This document shows, piece after piece, positions 2,522 through 64,000 of a stretch of 64,000 nucleotides of DNA. A program made the translations under genes and the position numbers. Source of the DNA: Rhizomucor pusillus (Eukaryota > Mucoromycota > Mucoromycetes > Mucorales > Lichtheimiaceae); assembly GCA_900175165.2 (NCBI GenBank), contig FWWN02000613.1, forward strand, positions 62,001-126,000, written 5' to 3'. Every line of letters begins with the position of its first letter. Position 1 is the first letter of the stretch. Under the pieces are notes generated by a model. It did not search any database, was not told the origin of the DNA, and was given only the letters and a program-made list of their open reading frames with translations.

Positions 2522-3122
2522 TTTATACAGGTGTAAAGGTGTCCGTCGCCAAACTGGTCGTACTTGGCATTTAAGGTACCGCCCGAACCTTTGATGTCTG
2601 AAACATAGGAAATCCCTCTCCAATACACGTAAAATACCATGAGACCTATGTACAGTCCCTTAAACGGAAGATGTTTTCTATCTAGCTCTAAAATTACGCT
2701 GCTGCATTGAAGATACGATTTACAAATGTATAGGCAACCTTTAGTGCGGCGCCTGTTTAAAGGTATTTTGTGCTAATGCACTGAACGGTATCCGTGGCAA
2801 CAAATCACTTCATTGGCTACTATGATCCAGAATCGCATCGTGAAGAGTGAATGCTATCGGTAAACTGCAGAATATAGTAGGATCCGGACCGAACCGCGTC
2901 TCGGCAGACAACCTCGGAACATTCCTTTTCCTGCAATCGTCCCTGCTGAGTTGCTTGAAAGACAGCATCCAATTGTTTGCTAAGCTCGACTAAGCAAGTT
3001 TCACGACCCCTCTCGACCCCTCTCGACCCCTCGCACATTAAATTTGCCTATAAAAATGCCATGAGCGATCTCTCGGCTTCTTCCCGCATCAGTTTCTTTC
3101 TATTTATCCAGAAAAGGCAAAA
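2522..3122. promoter_or_regulatory. Divergent intergenic region between APM3 and methyltransferase
   Basis: It separates two divergently transcribed genes and should carry both promoters. It includes three tandem copies of a 10-bp unit (TCTCGACCCC-like) at about 3003-3034. A minus-strand open stretch at 2820-3038 (72 codons) and further open minus-strand sequence at about 2530-2700 could be exons of an unrecognised gene, but no family motif supports this. Confidence 0.35.
3003..3034. repeat. Three 10-bp tandem units
   Basis: Three adjacent copies of a CTCGACCCCT-like decamer about 90 bp upstream of the methyltransferase ATG. Could be a regulatory repeat; no factor can be named. Confidence 0.6.
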
Positions 3123-4040
3123 ATGTCCTCAGAAAAGATTCCTCACGCTGTAGCTGCAAAAGGCTTCACTTTAGGTGCGGACAACTATGGTAAGTTGTAA
3201 CAATGCTAAGCATTATTCAACCCTTTAACACTGACATCAAACTCCTTTAAAGCGAAAGCACGTCCATCCTATCCGGCAGCAGCCGTTGAGTACATCCAAA
3301 CTATTGTTACTCCAGGCGCGAAAGTTCTCGATTTGGCCGCTGGTACCGGTATCATGACCAAACTCCTGGTCCAGGCTGGTTATTCTGTGACAGCCGTCGA
3401 GCCTGTGGCAAACATGCGAGCCAAGTTGAAGTTTGACCTACCAGACATACCAGCTCTGGAAGGCACCTCATGGAATATCCCTGTTGAGTCAGAATCTCAG
3501 GATGCAGTGATAGTTGCACAAGCATTCCATTGGTTTGACGACATTCAAAGTCTCAGGGAGATCCACCGTGTACTGAAGCCGGGAGGCAAGCTCTTACTCA
3601 TTTGGAACATGGAAAGTAGGCGCAGTGCCTGGGTAGGCAAACTTCGAGAGTAAGATCTACAAAATATCAGGACATTTAGAGTACACCAAATTCATTGTTC
3701 TTTTGATCTCAGTGTTTATGAAGGATACGATGAAGCAGCTCCTCAATATCGCAAGGGAAGATGGCGCCAAGTCTTTGAGACTGACGATGCAAAGGCTCTG
3801 TACAAACTGCCCTTGGAACAAGTACAGTTCACCAATGATTATCTAGCTTCAAGGGACGATGTAATCCGCCGCGTCTTTTCAAAGAGCTACATTGCAGTCA
3901 TATCCGACGATGAAAAAACTAAGCTCCGGGAGAAGTTTATCAACGAATGTTTGATCCCAGAGCATGGTTTCGAACCAAATGGAGATGGATATGTACTTTA
4001 TCCTCACGATACCGATCTTGTATGGGCACCAAAAATCTAG
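3123..4040 (+). CDS. Class I SAM-dependent methyltransferase
   Basis: Three exons (3123-3189, 3253-3649, 3713-4040) give 263 residues. The protein begins MSSEKIPHAVAAKGFTLGADNY and has the Rossmann-fold SAM-binding motif I VLDLAAGTGIMTKLL (about residues 65-80), acidic motif II VTAVEPVANM, and the later AQAFHWFD and EIHRVLKPGGKLLLIWNM strands. This matches the Methyltransf_11/25 type of small-molecule methyltransferase found widely in fungi and related to the yeast trans-aconitate methyltransferase group. Substrate cannot be told. Intron 1 starts GTAAGTTG and intron 2 GTAAGATC; both splices keep the frame. The gene is transcribed away from APM3, and the SWI3-type gene follows on the same strand about 220 bp later. 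Confidence 0.85.
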
Positions 4041-8059: not shown

Positions 8060-9613
8060 TTGGTCCATATCTTTGTGTGTTTTAATCGCATTTCGCTAAA
8101 ATGCAATTGGTACATTGCAATTGGTACATTGCCGTCACAAGACACAGATGTTCAGTCGCGTAGTCGTAAACAGCGCTTCCTTTGCTGCTTTGCTTAACTC
8201 TTTCAGTTTATCGTTATGACTTACTACAGTAGTGCGCGCCACAGTCATGAGTCGAAAAAATTGTATAGCCAACATGCCGAATATGCTGTTCATTGAAAGC
8301 CTCGTAAGGATATGATGCGGTTTAATGAGATAATGCGTGTAAACTCTATTGGTATACACAGCAGATGCATAAAGGAAAATAGTCTTCTGTAAATAGTGGG
8401 ATAAAAATCTCTCTCCTTCCTCTTTACACCGAAAACATGCCAGTGCTCGGATTCACCGGAAATATTCCCAGATACTTGGAACATATGCATGTCGATTGAG
8501 CATTTAGAGTCACAGATACTTGGATATTATTGCACGAACCGCACAAATATACCTCTAGCTATTATACGGAATATATTCCACAAATCTTTTACTGGAAACA
8601 ATTCTCCTTTAACAAATATCTTCAAGTTGTAGTATATCTTTGGAGCGACGCTACTTATCGTTACTGTTTTCTTCCAGCTGTTGTTATTGCTGTTTCATGG
8701 AGAGAGGATAGGTGCCAAACTCCATCTAACAATAAGTGTTAACAAGTCAAGAGCTGTATTCGACAAGGATAACTTGTTGTTGCAGGAGAGTTGTATTGAT
8801 TCTCAGATCTACCTCGCTTAAGCAACGGGCGAAGGGAGTGGCAACTGCTGTATGTCTTACTTTCATTGCAGACTGTATATTTTTGTTTGCTCAGGCCACC
8901 TAACCCCAAGTTCGATATCAAACTTTTCTGAATCTGCCTATACTTATCGGTCTTAACTGAGCATATGTGCATTTAGTACATGCGGTATACATACATTGTT
9001 ATCTTATTGCTACAAATATAACCAAAATGCTTATTTCTCTTTTACATTAATTTTGATTACTATCGTTTATACACAACCTTCATACACCATCGTTTTCATG
9101 CATCAAAATCCAACAAGAGCAGATTATCGACTACGTCAACTATATTAGTCTTGCATAGATAATTGCTAGAGATAACGTTACAGTCTCGCATTACTCAGAG
9201 ATGTTGACTGTCTGAAATGGTGAACATTGATGACGGGATGGTTAGACAGTGAATAATGACTTGCGGTTGCAATATTGTAGATAAAAGGGTTTTGCAGTTT
9301 TGTCAATGCATCCAACGTAGTTCCTTCCAATGCTATTGTACATATCCATATGTTTGCCATAAATCGAAAAGTTCCATGTATGCATTTCTTGCCAAAATTC
9401 AATTTTCAGGGTTGTTTGCGCTTAAGCTTGAATTCTCAACATTGGGCCAGTACCTGGTTTGCAAACTGGATGTATACTGGCGTATACGAAAGATTGTCAT
9501 CCGTTAAATTTTTTCTTTCTTCAACCAAGCGCTGCGTGAACGTCGACATAAATTTTTCTGTTTTGTTTCATACGTAAGCAGTTTCTTTTTCACTCCCTAC
9601 TCTTTCTAGATCT
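8060..9613. other. Gene-poor AT-rich region
   Basis: No gene recognised. A short direct duplication of a 14-bp unit (TGCAATTGGTACAT) occurs at about 8103-8131. Open stretches here are short and carry no family signal. The region leads into the Fanzor-like gene and may include its promoter or the end of its transposon. Confidence 0.5.
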
Positions 9614-12600
9614 ATGAAGAAGAAGAGGCATCAAACAGCGCAAGCACCCAGTACGAACGTTATCCCTCTTCCGAAACTACGCGATTCCGCAGAGACCCTA
9701 CGTAACAAAAGAGAGGTCGAAAAGCCAATCGAAATAAGCAAAGAAGAAATCATCAATAATCTCGAAGAGGTGCTCTACAAGATAATACGTGGCTCTATTC
9801 GAAAGATCAAATCTGAAAAGGAGGAGCCCGAAGACAAAAAGAAAAAACGCAAAGCTATAAGCAAGATCGCGAAGAAGGTGATTGAAAAGAGGAACAAGTT
9901 TCTTGTGTTGAAGCAAGTCCCTGCAGGCACTTGGGAGGAAACCGACAAACTCAGTGGCACACCTTATGGCACATCAAGGAATAAGCTGGCTAACGAATCA
10001 CCCGGCCCGCTTCAACAGCGGAGAACCTATGTAGCTTCGAACTTTGACAGTATCAGCGAGCAAGTGCAAATTTCCTGGGAAAGCATCGACAATGTAGAAA
10101 ATGATGATAATGTCGGCGATTTGCGTGATAGCGAAGATAATGTCATTGACTATCGCACTGCAAATGTGCTTTTGAAGGAAATACTACGACCTGACTTACC
10201 AGAGGACCACGTTGAGATGTTCAAAGAAACACTAAAGTCAATTCAAGAGTTGATATCGGATGACATTGCAAACCTTGCAACAAAAGGCGGCAGTCAATTC
10301 GATATGACGGAAATCCTCCCGCGAAACGCTATTCGAAACACGTCAATGCTTTTTCGGAATAAGTTCGTCACTTTAAATACGCAAATCGTTACTGACGCAG
10401 ATACGGCCCTATTTGAGCAGCAGCATATCGAAAAATTACACAGTATATACCTTGGAAATATGGCCACAACTGTGCAGCAAAGAGCTCTTGGCAGTATTAA
10501 CGCCGATTTTTTTGTCGAAAGCTTTTACTATTTACTACCTGCACCGGCTGGAATGTCTCAAACAATTAACCAGGCCATTCAACAGTACTGCAAAAATTGG
10601 AAAACATGTGGGCGGACAACAAGTTGCTTTCAAGGTCGGCCGAATACGTGGTTCGCATCCTATTGAGGTTACACTTGGCTCCAAAAAGAGAAGCGCATTA
10701 CAAAGACTTGGTTTCCAGAAAAGCGAAAGAGAAAAAAGAGTCCAAAGACTCTGTCAAAACTTCAGCCATTCGTAATTTGCAGCGGAACAAGCTTTACGAA
10801 GAGAGCAAGTACCTGCGCAAAACAGAAAGCCGTATCATGCAAGCCGGAGATGAACACCAAGAGGCTAAGCGGCGTTATAAATGTCAGCAGCGAATACATG
10901 CTATAAACGAAGCCTGGCAAAAGAGATTGGATAGAAAGCCTCAGGACACCGTAAGCTGAGGAGTGTGGTTATTTGCAAAATGATGTATTAACGGATTCGT
11001 TCGATACTTTTGTTCAGATCGTGCAGTTTGCAGCCGGGGACTCTGCCAGTACTGTACCAAACGAATATACTGTCGATGAGGTGAGCGCTCACTCTGATAT
11101 TAAACCTTTATAGGAATGCTAAGTAGATTATGGATAGGATGAACTAGTATCAGAACTATTGAAAAATGGTCTAGAAGAGGAAGAAATCATTGAAATTTTG
11201 GAGCAGCATGAAGAAGATTCGAATGAAGAAGAGCACACGGAAGAAGTCATTTCTGACCAATCGGGAACCGAGTAGAAAGCGATTGAACCGCTTGAAGGGC
11301 ATTTGCAAAACCCTCCTTTTTTCAACCACTTTGGCCAACGAAATAACAGAGCAAGATGTGACCAGCGCTTGCTACGACGATCTGGAGCTTTCATCCAAAG
11401 AAACTCAAATAATAGCGTTCATCGCCAAACTGCTCAGACCCTTCCTTCAAGCTTCAAACGGGAAGAAAAACCGGTCGATTGCAGATACTCTACCATTTGT
11501 CGTGTTTGCAAATACACTGTTAATAACCTGTGGATACCCGGAATTTACGGCACAAATTTCGCGAACGATATCACCGGCAAAAATCCAATCTTTAACGCTC
11601 GACGCTGCAGCTATGTACGAGATGTTCGCTTCCAACAATGGATGCTTCGATATCTATACCTCCAAGGATGAGAAAATAACGAACATCAGAAAAGCGCGTG
11701 AAAACAAGGAGGTGATGATCGGATCTTTCTTGGATATTGACAAAATCAAGCAAATCTATGAAGAATCAGATCTCCAGTTCCAGAATCGTGCGATTCTGAC
11801 ATCCTTTGGCGTCGTACGACTCTTAGGTAGAAAGAAACATGCAAATCAGATTCCGACCTCGGTTGATAGAACAGCAGGGCAGCAAGAAACTAAGGATGAT
11901 ATATTCAGCATCGACCTGGAAGTCCTAAATGAAGAGATTTTATCAAAAGAAGCCGTATACAAAATGCAGCAAAAGGAACGCAAAGAAGCCATAGCAGTAT
12001 GCGAACATGCAACGGTGGACATGCAGCAAAACGATATTCGAAAATTCCAGGAACTAAAGGAACTACGATTAAAACGTGCCTGGGCAATCACAGCCGCAGA
12101 AGAGACGGCGCTGGAATTAAAAGACATGCGCACGATCCGGTATCTGATCCAAAAGCAAAAAAGGAGACAAGACCACAACAAAAAGCTGGTGATCAGACCA
12201 AGAAAAAGATGGTGCTTACTTTGCGAAACTTCGCTTGTGAGAGTTTCCCAGCCAATATAACAATATCTACTCTGGAAAAAGAAGCTTACGAGGCAGGAAA
12301 GCCTATAGCGTATAGCGGCACGGACTATGGCTTGCAAACGATGTCTACGACAGTCCCTATGACAGCTGATAGAATGAATTATCATTTGTCACTCTACAAC
12401 ACATTTGACATGCTTAGCATTGCGGACGATGAAATCCCCATCGATACGCGTACTGACGATACTGGCACGTACGTGGAAATACCAAAATCCATCTGTATTA
12501 CAGCACCGCAACTGAACGAGAAGTCACTGAGCAACCAACATTCACGTTTACGTAATAGAAGAAAAGCAAGAAACACGGCTGTCCAAAATGCAGAAAAACA

Positions 12601-13339
12601 ATCAAGTGAATACTCGATGAAAACCGCATCAGCAGCTGAAGACGTGTCTGTAGCTCATAGGGTGAGCAAATGATCAGCTTGACTTGACATTGTACCTATT
12701 CTAAATTTATCTTTAGGTTGCGTGCGAATCAAGACCGATTCTGAGGTCTTTTTATCAGTCACCTCGGGCGAAAAAGAAAAACGAAATCAAGAGTTAGCGA
12801 CAAAGATTGCTTATAGTCAGGTAGCTGCTGAAGAGCGGAGAGCGATTAAAAATGATGCATGCGACGACAAAGCCATTCCTGTCATGTCCATTGGAAACCA
12901 AGGAACCGGTATTGGGAGCCGTCTAAAGGGGCATACTCGCCGAGGCGGCAAGAAATTATTGAAAGAACATTGTCGCTATGCAGTGATTGCAACTACGGAT
13001 GAATTCCGCAGTTCCAAAACTTGTCCGTTTTGTTTCGGCCCAATCATCCGTCAAAAAAGAAGGCTCAGAATTAAGGACCAATACAAGATGGTCACGGTCA
13101 ATGGATCATCCATTTGTATGAATCCAGACTGTATAAGTTACCAGAAGCACAAGAATACCTAAAACAGAGACGAGCTAGCAGCTGTATGTATCGCCATAGC
13201 TGGATACACAAATATGCAAGGATATTTCCTTCACTGTTTTCATCGATATGCAGCCTCTGCAATGCTGCTCCAAAAACAACGAACACACCTCCACCCATCA
13301 GGTAATAAAATGAGACACGTATTAGTACTTTGCTATTAA
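9614..13339 (+). pseudogene. Fanzor-like RNA-guided nuclease, large form, disrupted
   Basis: Eukaryotic relative of the transposon nuclease TnpB. A long lysine/glutamate-rich N-terminal region (ORF from ATG 9614) is followed by helical, basic exons up to 12260 with intron-like breaks (GTAAGCTG..TTCAG near 10956-11018; GTGAGC..TATAG near 11080-11115). The C-terminal core is diagnostic. It has a RuvC-I type GTDYGLQTM (about 12317), a GNQGTGIGSRLKGHTRRGGK block (about 12892-12950), a RuvC-III/zinc ribbon TTDEFRSSKTCPFC (about 12990-13030), a second cysteine pair GSSICMNPDC (about 13105-13131), then NRDELAAVCIAIAG carrying the terminal catalytic Asp. Defects: reading-frame shifts near 10590, 11272 and 12200, and an in-frame TAA at about 13159-13161 immediately before NRDELAAV. 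These could be decay or assembly indels. The extreme N-terminal part may be a separate gene. A MULE relic lies about 500 bp downstream. Confidence 0.72.
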
Positions 13340-13900
13340 CGCTGTAGTTTCATAGGCGATGCGGGGAAGGCTTCTGTTGAAGAACAGATAGACTAGATTA
13401 GCTAGTCTCCGAAGTAAATGATAAGCATTAGAGAATGGAATGCATCTACTATGCACTTTCTTCATTGTTTGATATTGGGAGACAGGATTTGCATAAATGG
13501 AGAGTATCCACTGCTTTCCTTAGTGTACTGTTATTGTAATGGGATGCCCAAAAATTTGTGCAGAGTCCCTTTTATACCTAAAGAGAAAGTCTTCTACACT
13601 TTAGATACTGAGAGAGGAAGATACCGTCAAAGTTAAGGATTCATTTTATAAATGTAGGATGAAAAAATGAAGATCCAAGACTTGAGTCTTGCTGCAAAGT
13701 TAAAACTATTGCCACAGAAAACTAGCTCTTATTTTTTACGAAGCTTTGCAATGGCGATAATAAAAATGCCCAACTACAAAGAAATGGAATTTACGATGTG
13801 TCATGAGTTGGTCTAGCTATTGTTATACAAGTAGTAACCGCACAAATGTTCGGGTATCCAACTGCACAAAAATTCAGGGCTCCCCCTCCCTGTTCCTGTC
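13340..13900. other. Downstream flank of Fanzor-like gene
   Basis: No protein-coding gene recognised. In known Fanzor/TnpB loci the guide RNA scaffold is made from the sequence overlapping or just past the 3' end of the ORF, so this stretch is where such an RNA would be expected. No structure is claimed by eye. Confidence 0.3.
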
Positions 13901-13905
13901 GTTTC

Positions 13906-14860
13906 TTCTTTCTCAAGCCGACCTCATTGCTCGAACGCGATTACCGCAGTGATCTTGAAGAGTTTGAGGACTGTATACCTCAGGTGTCAGCAGCGCATGG
14001 CGTCACATATTCGGAGCGAAACAGCGTGAAACGACGATCTACAGAGAATGGCAACGTACGCGTTACGTATCAGTGTGCTTAATGTGGGCAGTACCGAAAC
14101 AACCGGGGAAAAACGGCAGACAACATGGAAATACAGAATTCGTTAGTTGCTAAATACGGTACGGCTTACATCCGTGTCGCCACGTTGACGCATAACCTTA
14201 AGGAGCACCATTATATTCACGAAGTTTAACGATATTCACAATCGTCCACCAATGTACGGCAGTGAACATTGTCAAGATGGAAAAAATGGACTATTGCAAC
14301 GCTATTCCTTACGAACGTCTCGGTACCCGCGCAAACATCAGAGTGCGTTAAACGAAGTAAACAACGCAGGTACGATCCAGCAAACCTAAAGACTTTTGCG
14401 TGAGAGAGATTATTTTGCCATTTTTTCGCTGTTCCAACCTCAGCAAAATGCTTGAGCATCGTATCTGCAATGCCATGAAGAATGCTCACTACATGTTGGA
14501 TCAGGCAAGCCTTGATGATTGGTGCGAACTACAACACCAACGTCTCGAAATTTCCATGCTCAGCACTGCTGGTATTAGCAATTTCATCCTTCCAGATTGC
14601 TATGGTTTGGATGGAGGATGAAATTTATGACTCCTACCGCTGGTTTCTTCTACCCTCCGAAGCAAAATATATGAACTCAATGGCATCACTCCGGACGTTT
14701 CCATGTTGATCGCTGCGTTGCGTTGATGAAAGCTTCCGAGAATGTCTTCCCATCTGCCAAGAAATGCACTGTAACTGGCGTATCAGAGAATAAAATCTAA
14801 AACCAAAAGTTTCTCTGTCAAGCCTTTTACAAACGCAGAGTTGCAGATGACATGCAAGCA
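13906..14860 (+). mobile_element. MULE (Mutator-like) transposase relic with FAR1-type domain
   Basis: Degenerate plus-strand coding remains. At about 13935-14220 a FAR1/WRKY-GCM1-type DNA-binding pattern can be followed: LEEFEDCIPQVSAAHGVTY, SERNSVKRRS, RVTYQCA, a TAA stop, then CGQYRNNRGKTADN and KYGTAYIRVATLTHN. At about 14640-14790, across two frames, is the MULE transposase pattern ITPDVSMLIA / RCVALMKASENVFPSAKK followed by a CNWRIREN-like CxWH relic. Stops and frame changes in every segment mean no intact protein is made. I cannot see terminal inverted repeats. Assignment rests on motif order rather than on a full-length match. Confidence 0.5.
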
Positions 14861-15458: not shown

Positions 15459-15532
15459 GCTCTTGTGGCGCAATTGGCTAGCGCGTCTGACTGTTAATCA
15501 GGAGGTTGGTGGTTCGAGCCCACCCAGGAGCG
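15459..15532 (+). tRNA. tRNA-Asn (anticodon GTT)
   Basis: A 74-nt cloverleaf. The acceptor stem GCTCTTG pairs with CAGGAGC (one G-T pair), with discriminator G. The D arm contains GGCGCAATTGGCTAGCGC. The anticodon stem TCTGA/TCAGG encloses loop CTGTTAA with anticodon GTT. The T arm is GGTGGTTCGAGCCCACC. The internal A box (TGGCGCAATTGG) and B box (GGTTCGAGCCC) are intact and there is no intron. Confidence 0.95.
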
Positions 15533-57643: not shown

Positions 57644-58053
57644 CATACTCTCTTAATTGTCTCAGTAATCTCAAAGTTTTGTTGTTGCTTTCTTCATCTC
57701 CTTTTATGTACACTCTTTCCATAGATTAAATTCGTCATCCAATGAAAATCGTAACGATTCAATTTTGAGCACTATTTCGCATTCTCCCTAGTGTGGATGT
57801 CGCATTTTTCCGGTACAAAGCTTAGCACCTCCAAGAGTATATAAAGCATGTAAATATGTATAGGCCAGCTTTCCTCCTTCCTGCCACATCGTGCGGTTGA
57901 AATTTCCGATTACAAGATGAGCATCCAGTTTTTTTTTATGACGATGAGCAAGGCAATGCTGTCGACGAAGAGCGGTATGCTCTTGAAACGCAGAGTTCAT
58001 ACACGCAGTAATTGCGTAATCGAACTCGCGAGAGCGATGGCCGATCAGACGCT
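57644..58053. other. Intergenic; left flank of transposase relic
   Basis: A minus-strand frame at 57788-58000 (70 codons) is protein-like but unrecognised. The left end of the transposon should lie here; no inverted repeat could be paired by eye. Confidence 0.35.
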
Positions 58054-58869
58054 ATGCAGACTGATGACGTAAAAAAGGGTGCGGAGGTTCGCATGAGAGA
58101 AGCGTCGAACAAGCGAGTGTACACGCTCTACACGGCTCAGGACAAAGTCAGATTCTTCAAACTGATGTTTGAGAAAGTTCTGAGTGCCTCAGCTGCCGCA
58201 AAACAGTTAGGTATCCATGTCCGTACAGCTCAAAGATGGGCCAAACAGGATGAGGTGAATCCGGATGGCATATTCGCGAAGCGTAAGAAGAATGGTCGTC
58301 CGCGTATCCTTGGTGAAGAGCATAAGAAGGTCATTCTAGAGTACGTCGATGAGAACCCTTCNGTTGTCTTGGANCAGTTGATGGAGCGACTGCTTCAGAG
58401 GTTTAAAGGGCTCAAAGTCTCTAAGAGTACCATTTATGACTTCGTGAGGACGCAGTGCAACCTGTCACTTAAGAAGGCTCGGTTCCAGCCTGTAGACAGG
58501 AACAGCGGGGCCAAGATTCAAGAGCGTCTTGACTGAGTTCGCAAATGGGAGGGAACCGATATGGACTTAGGACTAATTGTGTCTTCGTAGATGAGTCTGC
58601 CTTCCATGTCAACATGAGGCGCAATAGGGGCCTGGCCAAAGAAAGGTTCGCCTGCAATAGTCACGGTGCCCAAAACACGAGCGCAGACAACCACCATTTT
58701 GGCCGCGATCTCTGCCTCAGGTCTAATTAACTGCAGCCTGAGACTGCCACAGCCACCAGCCAAGAAGAGCACAGGGACAGTAACAGGTCGTTACCTAAGC
58801 TTCTTGAGGGCCACAATGGATGAGATGGACCGGTATCCGCACATGAAGGGCCGCTACCTCTCACGATAA
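58054..58869 (+). mobile_element. IS630/Tc1-mariner-type transposase relic
   Basis: From ATG 58054 (MQTDDVKKGAEVRMREASNK) a helix-turn-helix region is intact: VRFFKLMFEKVLSASAAAKQ, LGIHVRTAQRWAKQDEVNPD, KKNGRPRILGEEHKKVILEY and SKSTIYDFVRTQCNLSLKKA. A TGA at about 58534 interrupts it. The DDE part follows in another frame as NCVFVDESAFHVNMRRNRG (first catalytic Asp), then after a further shift ILAAISASGLINCSLRLPQP and GTVTGRYLSFLRATMDEMDR, ending YPHMKGRYLSR and TAA at 58867. The expected next block with the second catalytic Asp is missing, so the copy is dead and truncated. Two ambiguous n bases lie at about 58362 and 58374. No terminal repeats were identified. Confidence 0.85.
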
Positions 58870-60138: not shown

Positions 60139-60750
60139 ACAAGATCCCACAGTGTCTGAAGAAGTTCAAAAGCTAACTGGAAGAAAACCTCTGGGAAAAT
60201 ATCACGAAACATGGGGGTTTTCACCTTCCGCAGCAGTTCAACGAAGTTTGGCCACAAACAACAATATTGCAGCTTCTATCCTACAGCAGGCTCTGGTACA
60301 ATAATATCGTTTTCGGCGGCTCATTAGTCTTCTGTGCGGATCAAGACGTCGATCAACGTCAACCATTGCAAGAACGCTCCTCTAGACATGCAGTGAAAAA
60401 TGTATTTCGGCGAAGTATTTCTATTTGCATGAATGCCAAGAAGAATGTTGTCATCCATGTGCAAGACATCGAACCTTTCGTCGGACGAATACTCGACATG
60501 GATGGCAGCGAGTATATCTATTTGGTCTCAACTGCCATTGATTACACGCCTCAACAGTATTTACTTTGAATATGAAACTTCTTTTGCATGGTCGCATAAT
60601 TTCTGAATGTCGTTTTGCATGCCTGAATATCAATTTCCGATGGTGAAGGATTAGGAATGTTATCAAGCGAAAACAATTCCAAATCTTATTGTTATACAAG
60701 CGGACTTGCACAAATATAGTAGAGCGGCGATAACCACTCAGGAAAATCAT
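60139..60750. other. Intergenic; downstream flank of the second Fanzor
   Basis: No gene recognised. It lies 5' of the sulfotransferase-like gene and 3' of the minus-strand Fanzor copy, so the latter's guide-RNA scaffold, if any remains, would be sought at roughly 60450-60900. Confidence 0.35.
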
Positions 60751-63138
60751 CTATCTAGTAGCTTTCCTTCTAAATCTCGATGGTATGACTCCAGTCTGGC
60801 ATAGACTATTGAATATAATCCTGAAGTTTAGGACCGCGGCGAGATCCCTGTTCCATAACCTCCTAATGATTTCTTGCCATCTTGACGGCGTTCGTTCTTA
60901 CATCTATCGACTTCTCCCATAAGTAACAATATTTATACCGTAGGTATCGAGAGAATACAGACCGAAGCAAACCATGACATATCACTTGTGGCATCTTTGC
61001 TCGTCTATAAGGTCTAGGATTCTTTACCATTTTGAATGTCTCCAAGGGTTGCGCGCAATCAGGACAAGACTCGATGTTTTGAATTCATCGATTAAATAAA
61101 CTTGGAACCGTTTGTTGCGTAACATCCTCAATAGACCAATGCCCCGGGCATGTTCATGGTACTTGTTGATAGTCGAGCTCCGTGCTGACCAGTTTCCAAT
61201 GATTAAGACAGGATCTGCTCTAAATTGGTCCCTTATGGCTTTCGCTAGCTTGTCGTCTGCTTGTTTCCTGTATAAATAGGAACGAAAACGTAGCTTCCGG
61301 TATATCAAGGATTGATAGTGTCGTGACATTATGGCGCTGACCTCTCATCTAGTCTTCATGTAAAGCAAAAACTTTGGAATTTTGGAATATACACCGTTGC
61401 AGCAGGATGCTTCGACAATTTCGCTTCGCACGTTTGATACGTTGTCTTAACTTCTTGTACTGTGTAGCTTTTGTATCGATCGCTTTTGTGTTCTTTGTAT
61501 AGCGACACGTAAGCGGTGCATCATTGGTGCTGTCCTGATGCATACAATATAGCAGATCTATACGTCCGGGATCGATGAAGACTGTCTTTGGCTTTATATT
61601 TTCCAGAGTCGTCTTGTCCAAATCGTGAATGTATGTGAAATCACTCTTCGNNNNNNNNNNNNNNNNNNNNNNNNNNNNNNNNNNNNNNNNNNNNNNNNNN
61701 GGCTTGCGACCAAATCCGGAATCGCCGTCTGTGAAAATAGTTCCTTTGAAGGCCATAGACTTGACAGCGCCTTGGTTCTGGAGAGGCTTCGACTGGAAGT
61801 TGACAACTTGTTTCCACAGGTCTAAATCAAAGTCGATATTGTTTGGTTTTTTCAACATCTGAGTCGCCAGAATTTTGGTATCAATTTGCATATGCGCCGG
61901 GATCCAGGATGTTCGTAACGGCATACACTGGAAAGTCTTGATCTCATGGTCTTCGCAAAACTTGGCCATCATTACGTAAGCGAGCGCATGATTCCCGGGT
62001 GTTGACTTCGAGTCATAATATTAGGAATCCTCGTCAAACTCGTATGCAGCAGGGTAGGCAGAAAACAATGCATCATGAAATTCCAACAACAACTGGCTTT
62101 GCTTTTCTGATGACAGCAATTCTCGTGCGTTACCGGTAATAAAGCTTGCTTCACATCGTGCGCAGGCTTGGTGACTTGTTTGTATCTAGCTTCCTTGATC
62201 TCTTGGCTGGATTTGTCTTGTTCGGTCATCTCTTTAGTCGATTATCCTTGACTTTGAGCAGCGAATTGATTACGTAACGTAACCGGTTACCGAAGCAATC
62301 TTTGATGCTGTTCAAGTAGGCGGTGCAAATCCTTGAACCTTCATAACGCGCAATCTGCTGTGAATTCGTAAGCGCTTTTCGATCGAATCCAGAATGTTTC
62401 AGGTAATTTTTGATATGCCGATGGATCAGCCCACGATAACGTGTTGTACCATCCGTTCGCGAAGACTTCACTGTACGCAGTGTCAAAGAGAGCCAGACTT
62501 CAGCGAAGAAATCCGTTTCCAGCCAGTTCTCCATTGGAAATCGCTCTCCAGGTTCAGTAGCATGTATCTCCGATAGGAAGATGTAGCGAGCAAGCGCGTA
62601 TGCGTGTGTAGGGATTTCGTTTACAGTGATAACGAGCTTCTCCAACGGACTTCGATATCGTGCTTCCCACGAAACGCCATTGATAGATGACTTAATAGTC
62701 ATTATCCGTTTCTTGCGTTTTGTGGGTGTCACAGTGGTCTTTCGACGCTTGCTACTTAATTTGCCTGTGTTGTAATATGCAAGCCCATATCAGTGCAAAA
62801 TCTGGAAAGAAATCTGTATGGCTTACCCGCAATGACATCTTTGTCTTTGCTTCGCTTAATGGTTCAAGAATCACTCGCACCTGCTATAGCAATTATAAAT
62901 AAGTGATGGGAGAAGTTCCGGTATCATAAGTTTGAACTTCACCTGTTTGCCTTTCAGTTTCTTTGGAGCTCGTTTCCGGGGTACGATTGGGGTCTGGAAG
63001 TCATCTTCGCTGTCTTCAGCTAAAAAGCGTGATATATGACCAGGAAGGGCAGATACTGTCAGTGATATATATAAATCCAGTATGAGTCAGTGAAATAATC
63101 ATACCTGTTACTGCATCGCTTCCTTTCGTATTGGACAT
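60751..63138 (-). pseudogene. Fanzor1 RNA-guided nuclease, decayed copy
   Basis: It starts at ATG 63138 (MSNTKGSDAVT), followed by nuclear-localisation-like clusters PRKRAPKKLKGK, SKRRKTT and TKRKKR across short exons. The N-terminal domain has SINGVSWEARYRSPLEKLVI, VNEIPTHAYALARYIFL and ARYEGSRICTAYLNSI. The middle has YKQVTKPAHDVKQALL, then an in-frame TAA (about 62021-62023) before YYDSKSTPGNHALAYVMMAK, and MPLRTSWIPAHMQIDTKIL. RuvC-I is VFIDPGRIDLLYCMHQDS; RuvC-II region IIGNWSARSS; RuvC-III YLIDEFKTSS. The zinc knuckle SCPDCAQPLE and VICHGLLR|CKNER follow, then RLWNRDLAAVLNFRIIFNSL, ending FRRKATR with TAG at 60751. Frame shifts near 62226, 62100, 61340, 61060 and 60880 break it. A 50-N gap lies within. 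All catalytic landmarks remain readable, so decay is recent or partly assembly error. Confidence 0.85.
61651..61700. other. Assembly gap (50 N) in the Fanzor copy
   Basis: Fifty N placed upstream (in coding sense) of the RuvC-I block of the minus-strand Fanzor. Its round length suggests a placeholder; flanking frames are both open. Confidence 0.99.
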
Positions 63139-64000
63139 ATGGAAACAGGGAAAAGAAAGGGATCGCGTGGCGACTACAAAAGCCGTTTAAATTCACGCTT
63201 AGTTGCGACATTCAAATAGCAATGTTATTTTGAGGCATCCTTTTGCTTCCTTGGAGCCGATGTCTCTTATTATGAAAAGTTGTCAAGTGCTACAAATTAT
63301 TATCCAACGCATTCTAAATCTAATGTCATTCATTTAAACCTTTAAGAATGCTATATTTCTTTCCTTAAGAAGCTTTGCTGCTATATATCGTCCCTCATAT
63401 CTCTCAGAGGATCTACATCACAGAAAGATTTATTTACATCGATGTTTGACCTTGAATTCGATCATCATAACCGTAAATTGAACGGGGAAAAGTCAGTGCT
63501 ACCGTACAGGACATTAGTCCCCTTCGTCCCTTTCATTTACGCATACTGTCTAATCTACTTAAGCTCCAACTCGAAATACGTCCAGTCGCCTCTTGTAACA
63601 CAGCACCGTCGAGTTGCGGTTTATTCAGACCTGCGCTCCCATGAAGCATTGGTGAGAGATATAAAACGGATGTCTTCTTTCTTTCTTGGAAGGGAGCTCT
63701 GCCCCCTCCAGAACCCCCCCCCCCGCTCCTGCGGAGGGCTGCCCATTGAATTATTGATGTCTAATATATATTTTATTCGTATACTTCTCTGTATACGATA
63801 TTGCGAGTGGCAGGCTCTGCATTGGTTAATGTGTGAGGGGAAGAAAAACGGATAGAGATGACATGGAAGAGACGCAGGAAAGCGCAACGTATAGTTGGCC
63901 AACAGCATGTTGTTCTCCTCTTGATGAAATGTCAGCTGTGACACCTTCCAAATCTGCATTTCAGCGTCCCAAAAGGGTTAAAATTCTGGGATGTTTTTAT
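63139..64000. other. Intergenic to window end
   Basis: No gene recognised. Open stretches at 63442-63855 (plus) and 63621-63959 (minus) overlap each other and have no domain. A C11 homopolymer lies at 63714-63724. Confidence 0.45.

Follow-up and report, generated by a model that had tools for sequence, protein, structure and literature searches.

Fanzor1 proteins have been described as RNA-guided endonucleases (PMC10432273, PMC11423790, PMC10711439), and most of them are 600–700 aa in length (PMC11423790). Two of them, PpFz1 of Parasitella parasitica and SpuFz1 of Spizellomyces punctatus, have a C-terminal RuvC domain with its Glu in a DE[FY]+TS motif, a C4 zinc ribbon and an NRD motif. PpFz1 is itself an enlarged Mucorales protein, with a ~100-aa insertion (FRI) that lies inside RuvC and binds cyclophilin (PMC11423790). 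As Bao and Jurka (2013; PMC3627910) describe them, Fanzor1 genes in Mucorales are carried by dispersed DNA elements, their products share the motif D-X(125,275)-[TS][TS]XX-C4-X(5,50)-RD, and the N-termini are “highly variable.” Here we describe a Fanzor-like gene in a 64,000-nt stretch of the Rhizomucor pusillus genome (contig FWWN02000613.1; hereafter the window, with positions counted from its first letter). We consider it probable that the locus is a decayed non-autonomous element whose sole recognisable gene encoded a giant Fanzor1-type nuclease of ~1,180 residues with a conserved N-terminal module (N-module) of ~450 residues, and that the intact relatives of this protein are RNA-guided.

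The gene shares the C-terminal features of PpFz1 and SpuFz1 and, like the Fanzor1 genes of Bao and Jurka, lies in a dispersed element. It differs from PpFz1 and SpuFz1 in the size of its lineage (~1,180–1,750 aa), in the conserved N-module, in having D[YCR]G instead of DPG at RuvC-I in most families, and in escaping the Pfam model PF07282. Whereas FRI is an insertion within RuvC, the addition here amounts to ~450 aa or more in front of the nuclease. The module is conserved across two phyla, in contrast to the variable N-termini described for Fanzor1, a contrast with the published description rather than with the sequences listed there. The gene probably belongs to a wider, apparently undescribed giant Fanzor1 lineage: no such lineage was found in the open literature searched, a search that left subscription papers and supplementary sequence sets, in which an uncommented member could be listed, largely outside.

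Layout and Decay of the Gene

The features of the element, all on the plus strand, are as follows.

8425..13407, +, dispersed mobile element of family A (left end near 8425, right end at 13407), from homology to copies C133 and C225
8425..9613, +, 5′ part of the element ahead of the gene, presumed non-coding, common to C133, C225 and partly C141
9614..10950, +, N-module exon(s), a K/E-rich start and then a helical module ending ...NMWAD...RILLRLHLAPKRE..., interrupted by a frame break near 10.59 kb
10951..11017, +, probable intron GTAAGC...CAG, in agreement with families A and B
11018..11080, +, small exon IVQFAAGDSASTVPNEYTVDE, its first part also present in gene model P0001
11081..11126, +, probable intron with an uncertain acceptor
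11127..12661, +, exon with the middle region, a coiled-coil pair and RuvC-I, with breaks near 11.27 and 12.16 kb and a TAG at 11135–11137
12323..12325, +, presumed RuvC-I catalytic Asp (GTDYG), invariant in 5/5 sequences of alignment A9
12662..12716, +, probable intron GTGAGC...TTTAG
12717..13159, +, RuvC-II/zinc-ribbon exon, with a frame break near 12.78 kb
13001..13003, +, predicted catalytic Glu of the DE[FY]RSS motif in the rearranged Fanzor position, from HMMER alignment to DEY/DEF-TS of SpuFz1 and PpFz1
13022..13132, +, predicted C4 zinc ribbon CPFC...CMNPDC, from motif and HMMER alignment
13160..13162, +, premature TAA, with no stop at that site in C133, C55, C100 or P0007
13163..13339, +, NRDELAAVCIAIAG... 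with the last catalytic Asp (13169–13171) and the natural C-terminus
13373..13405, +, Helitron-like 3′ end (6-bp hairpin, 13 nt, CTAG, then T)

Splice words and the correspondence between families A and B served to place the intron borders, and similar joins occur in the gene models P0001 and P0002. Joining the pieces 9614–10950, 11018–11080, 11127–12661 and 12717–13339 gives a protein of ~1,180 residues; the longest plus-strand frames of the 5′ part are short. The original prediction, made from the letters of the window, had recognised RuvC and zinc-ribbon motifs in Fanzor order, and all of them were found where it placed them: the Asp codon of GTDYGLQTM at 12323–12325, IGNQGTGIGSRLKGH beginning at Ile 12890, TTDEFRSSKTCPFC with its Glu at 13001–13003 and Cys at 13022 and 13031, and CMNPDC with Cys at 13115 and 13130. 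The TAA that it saw just before the terminal catalytic motif is likewise present and in frame, and is followed directly by NRD. Its end of the gene also stood, since the frame beyond the premature stop closes with a TAA at 13337–13339; its span of 9614–13339 is exceeded by the mobile unit, which extends from about 8425 to 13407.

The window copy is a dead relic, as four frame breaks (near 10.59, 11.27, 12.16 and 12.78 kb) and a private stop attest. The three internal breaks suspected beforehand (10590, 11272 and 12200) are real, and the one near 12.78 kb adds to them. Copy C133 has neither the first three breaks nor the TAA at 13160; near 12.78 kb it changes frame too, through a different shift. 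The TAG at 11135–11137 lies in frame where the annotated gene model of C133 reads exon; this R. pusillus model (P0001, VTP01DRAFT_9896) is nearly letter-for-letter the C133 copy. The stop before the last Asp is best read as ordinary decay, not as a trait of the lineage. With four frame breaks in the copy and the stop missing from every relative examined, recoding at this TAA was rejected.

The limits of the mobile unit come from comparison with other copies. Positions 8475–13407 match C133 DNA at 87.5%, and positions 8425–8464 (90%) and 8463–11112 (84.6%) match C225, with unrelated flanks in both cases. A host gene family, as opposed to a mobile element, might be expected from the introns and from long-term protein constraint between families (see below); with copies lying in unrelated flanks and many of them broken, truncated or internally deleted, we hold this to be very improbable.

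Relation of the Nuclease Domain to Fanzor1

We compared a profile of the C-termini of four families (A3) with one built from the C-termini of five ordinary Fanzor1 copies of this genome (A4), which were selected among 28 PF07282 rows mainly for the length of their frames (7 retrieved, 5 used). The two profiles aligned with a score of 78.8 and a probability of 97.4, in register at DE-TS, CxxC and RD. In the controls, the highest of 200 column shuffles scored 24.8, and the reversed profiles scored 11.2 and 9.4. Against the same canonical profile the N-module scored 12.1 and the middle region 14.9. Subsets also scored above these values (window row alone 45.9, A+B 43.9, A+B+C 66.6, P0007 alone 38.1; shuffles were made for A3 only), and a five-row profile (A9) scored 73.3 to 84.9 when any one canonical row was omitted.

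The C-terminal similarity to Fanzor that the original prediction had proposed to look for was also found outside the genome. In a sequence search of the PDB with A3, PpFz1 (9cf0, E 0.0013) and SpuFz1 (8gkh, E 0.0014) were the top two of 177,635 entries; when P0007 was added, the values became 0.0011 and 0.0005, followed by PRP3 (0.022) and Cas12f (0.41). The first catalytic Asp falls outside the HMMER alignment and was assigned from the invariance of G-x-D-x-G in 5/5 rows and from motif order. The motif D-X(125,275)-[TS][TS]XX-[C4]-X(5,50)-RD, given for Fanzor1 by Bao and Jurka (2013; PMC3627910), is present in the read-through window protein, with ~211 residues from Asp to Ser-Ser; in P0007 this distance is ~287 residues, slightly beyond the range of 125–275. 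Together, these results support the reading of the window gene as a putative Fanzor-type nuclease gene.

This relation is not visible to Pfam. A Pfam scan of the window pieces gave nothing significant, and PF07282 (Cas12f1-like_TNB), a detection model rather than a defining trait, matched neither the window pieces nor P0001–P0011. The last exon of the window gene matches 31 rows of the 24.45-Mb assembly (353 contigs), which merge with their neighbours into 27 loci (15/27 retrieved). None of these coincides with any of the 28 rows of PF07282. Thus, surveys based on the Pfam zinc-ribbon model can miss the whole lineage.

A Conserved N-terminal Module in Four Families

Searching the genome with the N-terminal part, the middle part and the last exon, and retrieving the copies, gave four sequence families.

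Family A: C41 (the window), C133, C225 and the fragment C141
Family B: C100, C34, the C55 end copy, C43 and C121
Family C: C17, C145, C332, C281 and the C55 start copy; C5, C26, C28 and C128 look like further members
Family D: C2 and C153

In all four families the N-module stands upstream of the nuclease, in the same order and orientation: a conserved module of ~450 residues, a middle region that includes a long coiled-coil pair, and the C-terminal RuvC/zinc ribbon. In an alignment of eight N-modules (families A, C and D and five Mortierellaceae), an Arg, a Trp and an LLR..LA..R core are invariant. The region had been described beforehand as far longer than the N-terminal part of the compact Fanzor1 elsewhere in the window and as including a lysine/glutamate-rich part with no known domain, and both descriptions hold: the protein has ~1,180 residues, its module recurs fused to nucleases elsewhere, and this module matches no Pfam or PDB family. 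The compact gene shows the same IGN...DEFKTS...NRDLAAV order; it differs in its classic FIDPG and TDG motifs and in having no N-module that we could recognise.

Whether the N-terminal region is always fused to the nuclease had been raised with the original prediction, and the answer is mixed. At least 270 N-module codons precede RuvC in 7/16 retrieved loci (the window, C133, the C55 end copy, C100, C281, C153 and C2), counted with queries that include sequences from these copies themselves, and the fusion is also present in P0007. Four loci (C55 start, C28, C128 and C26) have only 66–88 codons of the module, and five (C43, C17, C145, C332 and C5) have none. We read the loci without a full module as truncated, as lying at retrieval or contig edges, or as internally deleted. 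The stretches retrieved for C5, C26, C28, C128, C332 and the C55 start copy are short or reach the edge of a contig. C17 and C145 are read as internal deletions because C281, of the same family, keeps a ~2.1-kb block that they lack; C281 itself has no last exon. Internally deleted copies are frequent in family C. The converse arrangement, N-module present and RuvC absent, occurs in C34, which continues into masked sequence, and in C225.

Differences between families A and B indicate how the module evolved. The share of differences at third positions is 127/244 in the N-module, 94/173 in the middle region, 72/138 in RuvC-I and 52/88 in RuvC-II, and the nonsynonymous divergence (dN) is 0.35, 0.26, 0.35 and 0.24, respectively. 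Synonymous sites are saturated in three regions, with a synonymous divergence (dS) of 2.76 in RuvC-I. A third-position excess is also seen in the A–B tail, the B–C middle region and A–C RuvC-II; it is weak in the A–C N-module (69/162, with 60 at first positions), where amino-acid identity is 28%. Judged by A–B dN and the third-position pattern, protein constraint on the N-module resembles that on the nuclease, and the module appears to have been kept as protein about as strictly between these families before the copies died. Within family A, seven short pieces of the window compared with C133 or C225 gave noisy dN/dS values of 0.20 to 1.32, which fit decay. Two B–B pairs were too close or too short to judge.

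Relatives in Other Fungi

Three protein searches each scored ~8,000 candidates sharing most words, so the match lists are lower bounds. The first, with one sequence, gave at least one match (P0001); the second at least six (P0001–P0006, with P0005 and P0006 from Rhizopus delemar); and the third at least five, in Linnemannia, Entomortierella and Mortierella. Linnemannia is placed in the Mortierellaceae by look-up, and the other two genera presumably belong there too.

The most complete relative, P0007 of Linnemannia elongata, is a protein of 1,752 aa in a cluster of 11 sequences, and is apparently unbroken as predicted from its gene model. It contains the N-module (~300–905), the middle region (from 940), GTDRG, TNEMRTSKVCIFC, CVNNDC and RGRDD. 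In P0010 the N-module (residues 21–490) and middle part are followed by GTDYG, after which the model ends, whereas P0008 continues through the N-module and the middle part as far as the sequence ahead of the zinc ribbon, with no clear GTD motif. The two Rhizopus proteins P0005 and P0006 carry the N-module, and their models, like those of P0009 and P0011, end ahead of RuvC; P0005 aligned across query positions 258–749 with a probability of 99.5. The N-module and the middle part thus occur together in proteins from three genera of another phylum. P0007 has an additional N-terminal stretch (..FSTR..HIKSSYEGLGQFVAL..) ahead of the N-module, with a similar one in P0011, and P0007 and P0008 share an additional CxxC...C insert ahead of the zinc ribbon. 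No relatives were found in phages, plasmids or viral contigs, the viral scan consisting of two short patterns that matched 82 stretches, with 0 confirmed.

The distribution of the module bears on the possibility that an ordinary Fanzor1 of ~600–700 aa and an unrelated upstream gene were merged by gene finders. The gene models from other species are automatic, and such merging does occur, since the start of P0008 is the tail of a DDE_3 transposase (E 9.4e-6); P0005, P0006, P0009 and P0011 stop ahead of the nuclease, and the five R. pusillus loci named above have a nuclease with no N-module. Set against this are the constant order and orientation of N-module, middle region and RuvC in families A–D, the joint presence of the first two in the three other genera, the ~2.1-kb block whose absence from C17 and C145 fits deletion, the agreement of intron positions between families A and B, and the equal A–B constraint on module and nuclease. 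We therefore regard a merger as quite unlikely; no relative was found in which the N-terminal part belongs to an unrelated gene, a finding named beforehand as one that would refute the original prediction. The distribution instead favours the suggestion in the original prediction of a separate lineage with an added N-terminal module, the putative fusion recurring in four families and in P0007.

Evidence Against a Giant Fanzor1 Nuclease

Several results weigh against the reading of the gene as a giant Fanzor1 nuclease. The PDB E-values are modest, the alignments nonetheless being in register on catalytic and zinc residues, and no Fanzor came up when the full-length profile A1 was run against the PDB (best E 0.39, an unrelated plant protein). 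By sequence, the middle region had no match among Fanzor structures, with their WED domain (TDG) and REC1/REC2, and the upstream parts of the canonical Fanzor1 copies were retrieved in pieces too broken to align with it. The N-module profile had no match in the PDB or Pfam, NCBIfam had none for four proteins carrying parts of the gene, and no Pfam family was common to the 13 members scanned. Structure models were poor, with a predicted local distance difference test score (pLDDT) of 40.5 for P0012 (the RuvC region of the window, stops as residues) and 56.9 for P0010, and a Foldseek search with them gave nothing below E 0.001. The 50 rows shown of a VIA fold search were mostly coiled coil at 772–888; no Fanzor chain was among them, which excludes nothing. 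The 9/16 loci without most or all of the N-module count on the same side, as does the fact that P0007, an automatic gene model, is the sole protein found with the module and complete nuclease motifs unbroken. Finally, five segments from the final 100–150 nt of four copies showed no stronger folding than shuffled sequences did (z −1.19 to 0.12), and we therefore offer a guide RNA from this end as a proposal.

RuvC-I reads D[YCR]G rather than DPG in families A, B and C and in P0007, which also belongs among these points. DPG is kept in family D (C2), and the Pro is not strict, since C305, a PF07282-positive copy of the same genome, reads DFG. The lost proline, the large added module and a Lys at the catalytic Glu position of C2 could indicate that the lineage has ceased to be a nuclease and now binds DNA under RNA guidance or has a structural or regulatory role; nuclease-dead relatives of TnpB provide a parallel. 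However, families A, B and C and P0007 retain the D, E and D residues, the other family D copy (C153) has Glu, and both Cys pairs are kept in A9, so that a loss of nuclease function seems unlikely for the lineage as a whole.

Ends and Mobility of the Element

At the right end, both family A copies and two family B copies carry TAGCTAGTC. In family A this end consists of a 6-bp hairpin, perfectly paired around a GAAG loop, 13 nt, CTAG and T, and resembles the Helitron 3′ end as described by Bao and Jurka (PMC3627910). An arrangement of hairpin, 13 nt, CTAG and T occurs seven times on both strands of the 64-kb window, the element end included; its presence at an independently defined end is therefore unusual. 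Helitrons, for comparison, start with TC, close with a hairpin followed by CTRR, and insert at A|T with no target-site duplication.

No terminal inverted repeats joining both ends were present among the 25 longest of 77 pairs, and no target-site duplication was seen by eye at 8425 and 13407, in contrast to the MuDr-type Fanzor elements of Mucorales, which have terminal inverted repeats and a 9-bp duplication (MuDr-like repeats are described for ROr-4, PBl-3 and MCi-4; PMC3627910). The family A end is slightly better conserved than the remainder (233/245 identical versus 4184/4580 elsewhere, Fisher p 0.044), a difference too weak to be used.

The right end suggests a possible non-autonomous, Helitron-like element, whose nuclease would ride with rolling-circle (HUH) transposition. 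This concerns movement and is compatible with the giant Fanzor1 reading; an RNA-guided nuclease with Helitron-type movement is described for Chlamydomonas CRe-1 to 3 (PMC3627910). In its favour are the homology-defined right end, its last nine bases identical in the two family B ends, the rarity of the arrangement, the left end A|TC in C225 and six rows of Helitron Rep matches in the genome. Yet the pattern was noticed after the fact, the left end of the window copy is TT, the ends of family C differ from the A/B right end, the three Helitron regions retrieved (two partly masked) had no copy of the terminal word next to them, and no Rep or helicase was recognised within the element. On balance the Helitron-like 3′ end is only suggestive, and we rate this mode of movement as possible, at somewhat less than an even chance.

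Two further repeats lie near the copies. A near-palindrome of ~100 bp with TACACTTTTT ends (L037, about 3077–3178; also L040) interrupts the left end of C225 and recurs near C121 at 86%, and a nested miniature transposon is its probable identity. In addition, a 340-bp stretch with 82% identity is common to the sequences upstream of one family B copy (L036, 1518–1852) and one family A copy (L037, 2386–2722); it could represent a further repeat or belong to a larger unit.

Proposed Activity

Because the D-E-D set and the zinc ribbon are kept, and by analogy with the published Fanzor1 proteins, the intact relatives are probably guide-RNA-directed cutters. They would bind a guide RNA made from the right end of the element and use the D-E-D RuvC site to cut DNA that matches it; repair of the break from an element copy would then keep or regain the element, and a transposase supplied from elsewhere would move it. 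Such repair has been proposed for TnpB and extended by analogy to Fanzors that are linked to HUH transposases (PMC10432273).

As the N-module has no match in Pfam, the PDB or NCBIfam, its role is a guess: it probably adds a protein or nucleic-acid contact absent from compact Fanzors. Candidate jobs are nuclear import, recruitment of a helper or an extra grip on the target, and its lysine-rich start resembles a nuclear import signal. More tentatively, early-diverging fungi might hold a separate class of Cas12-sized eukaryotic RNA-guided nucleases in which the module provides a function that compact Fanzors obtain from another source, for example by recruiting a HUH (Helitron) transposase or gripping target DNA, and so couples nuclease and mobility in one protein; we consider this idea rather doubtful.

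The lineage nearly doubles the usual Fanzor1 size and adds a conserved module. Its apparently unbroken member in Linnemannia elongata opens the guide RNA, cleavage and the role of the module to direct tests, and could reveal how eukaryotic RNA-guided nucleases cooperate with transposases.

Other Features of the Window and Genome

The compact Fanzor1 lies at about 60400–63200 on the minus strand. Its FIDPG, TDG, IGNWS, DEFKTS and NRDLAAV motifs are spread across several frames, a 50-base N gap is present, and it is a broken copy too. About 2 kb from it, a plus-strand frame (58012–58533) encodes a homeodomain-like helix-turn-helix (PF13565, E 6.5e-8, just under cut-off; PF12728 and PF13384 above theirs), presumably of the kind found in Tc1/IS630-type transposases. 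Just right of the giant Fanzor element, a repeat at 13952–14100 is shared with C156, C343 and partly C41:51368 at 72–78%, and three frames near it had no match in a Pfam scan. A tRNA gene follows at 15459–15532 on the plus strand, ~2 kb right of the element. With its 28 PF07282 rows and 31 last-exon rows, the 24-Mb genome as a whole is rich in Fanzor genes.

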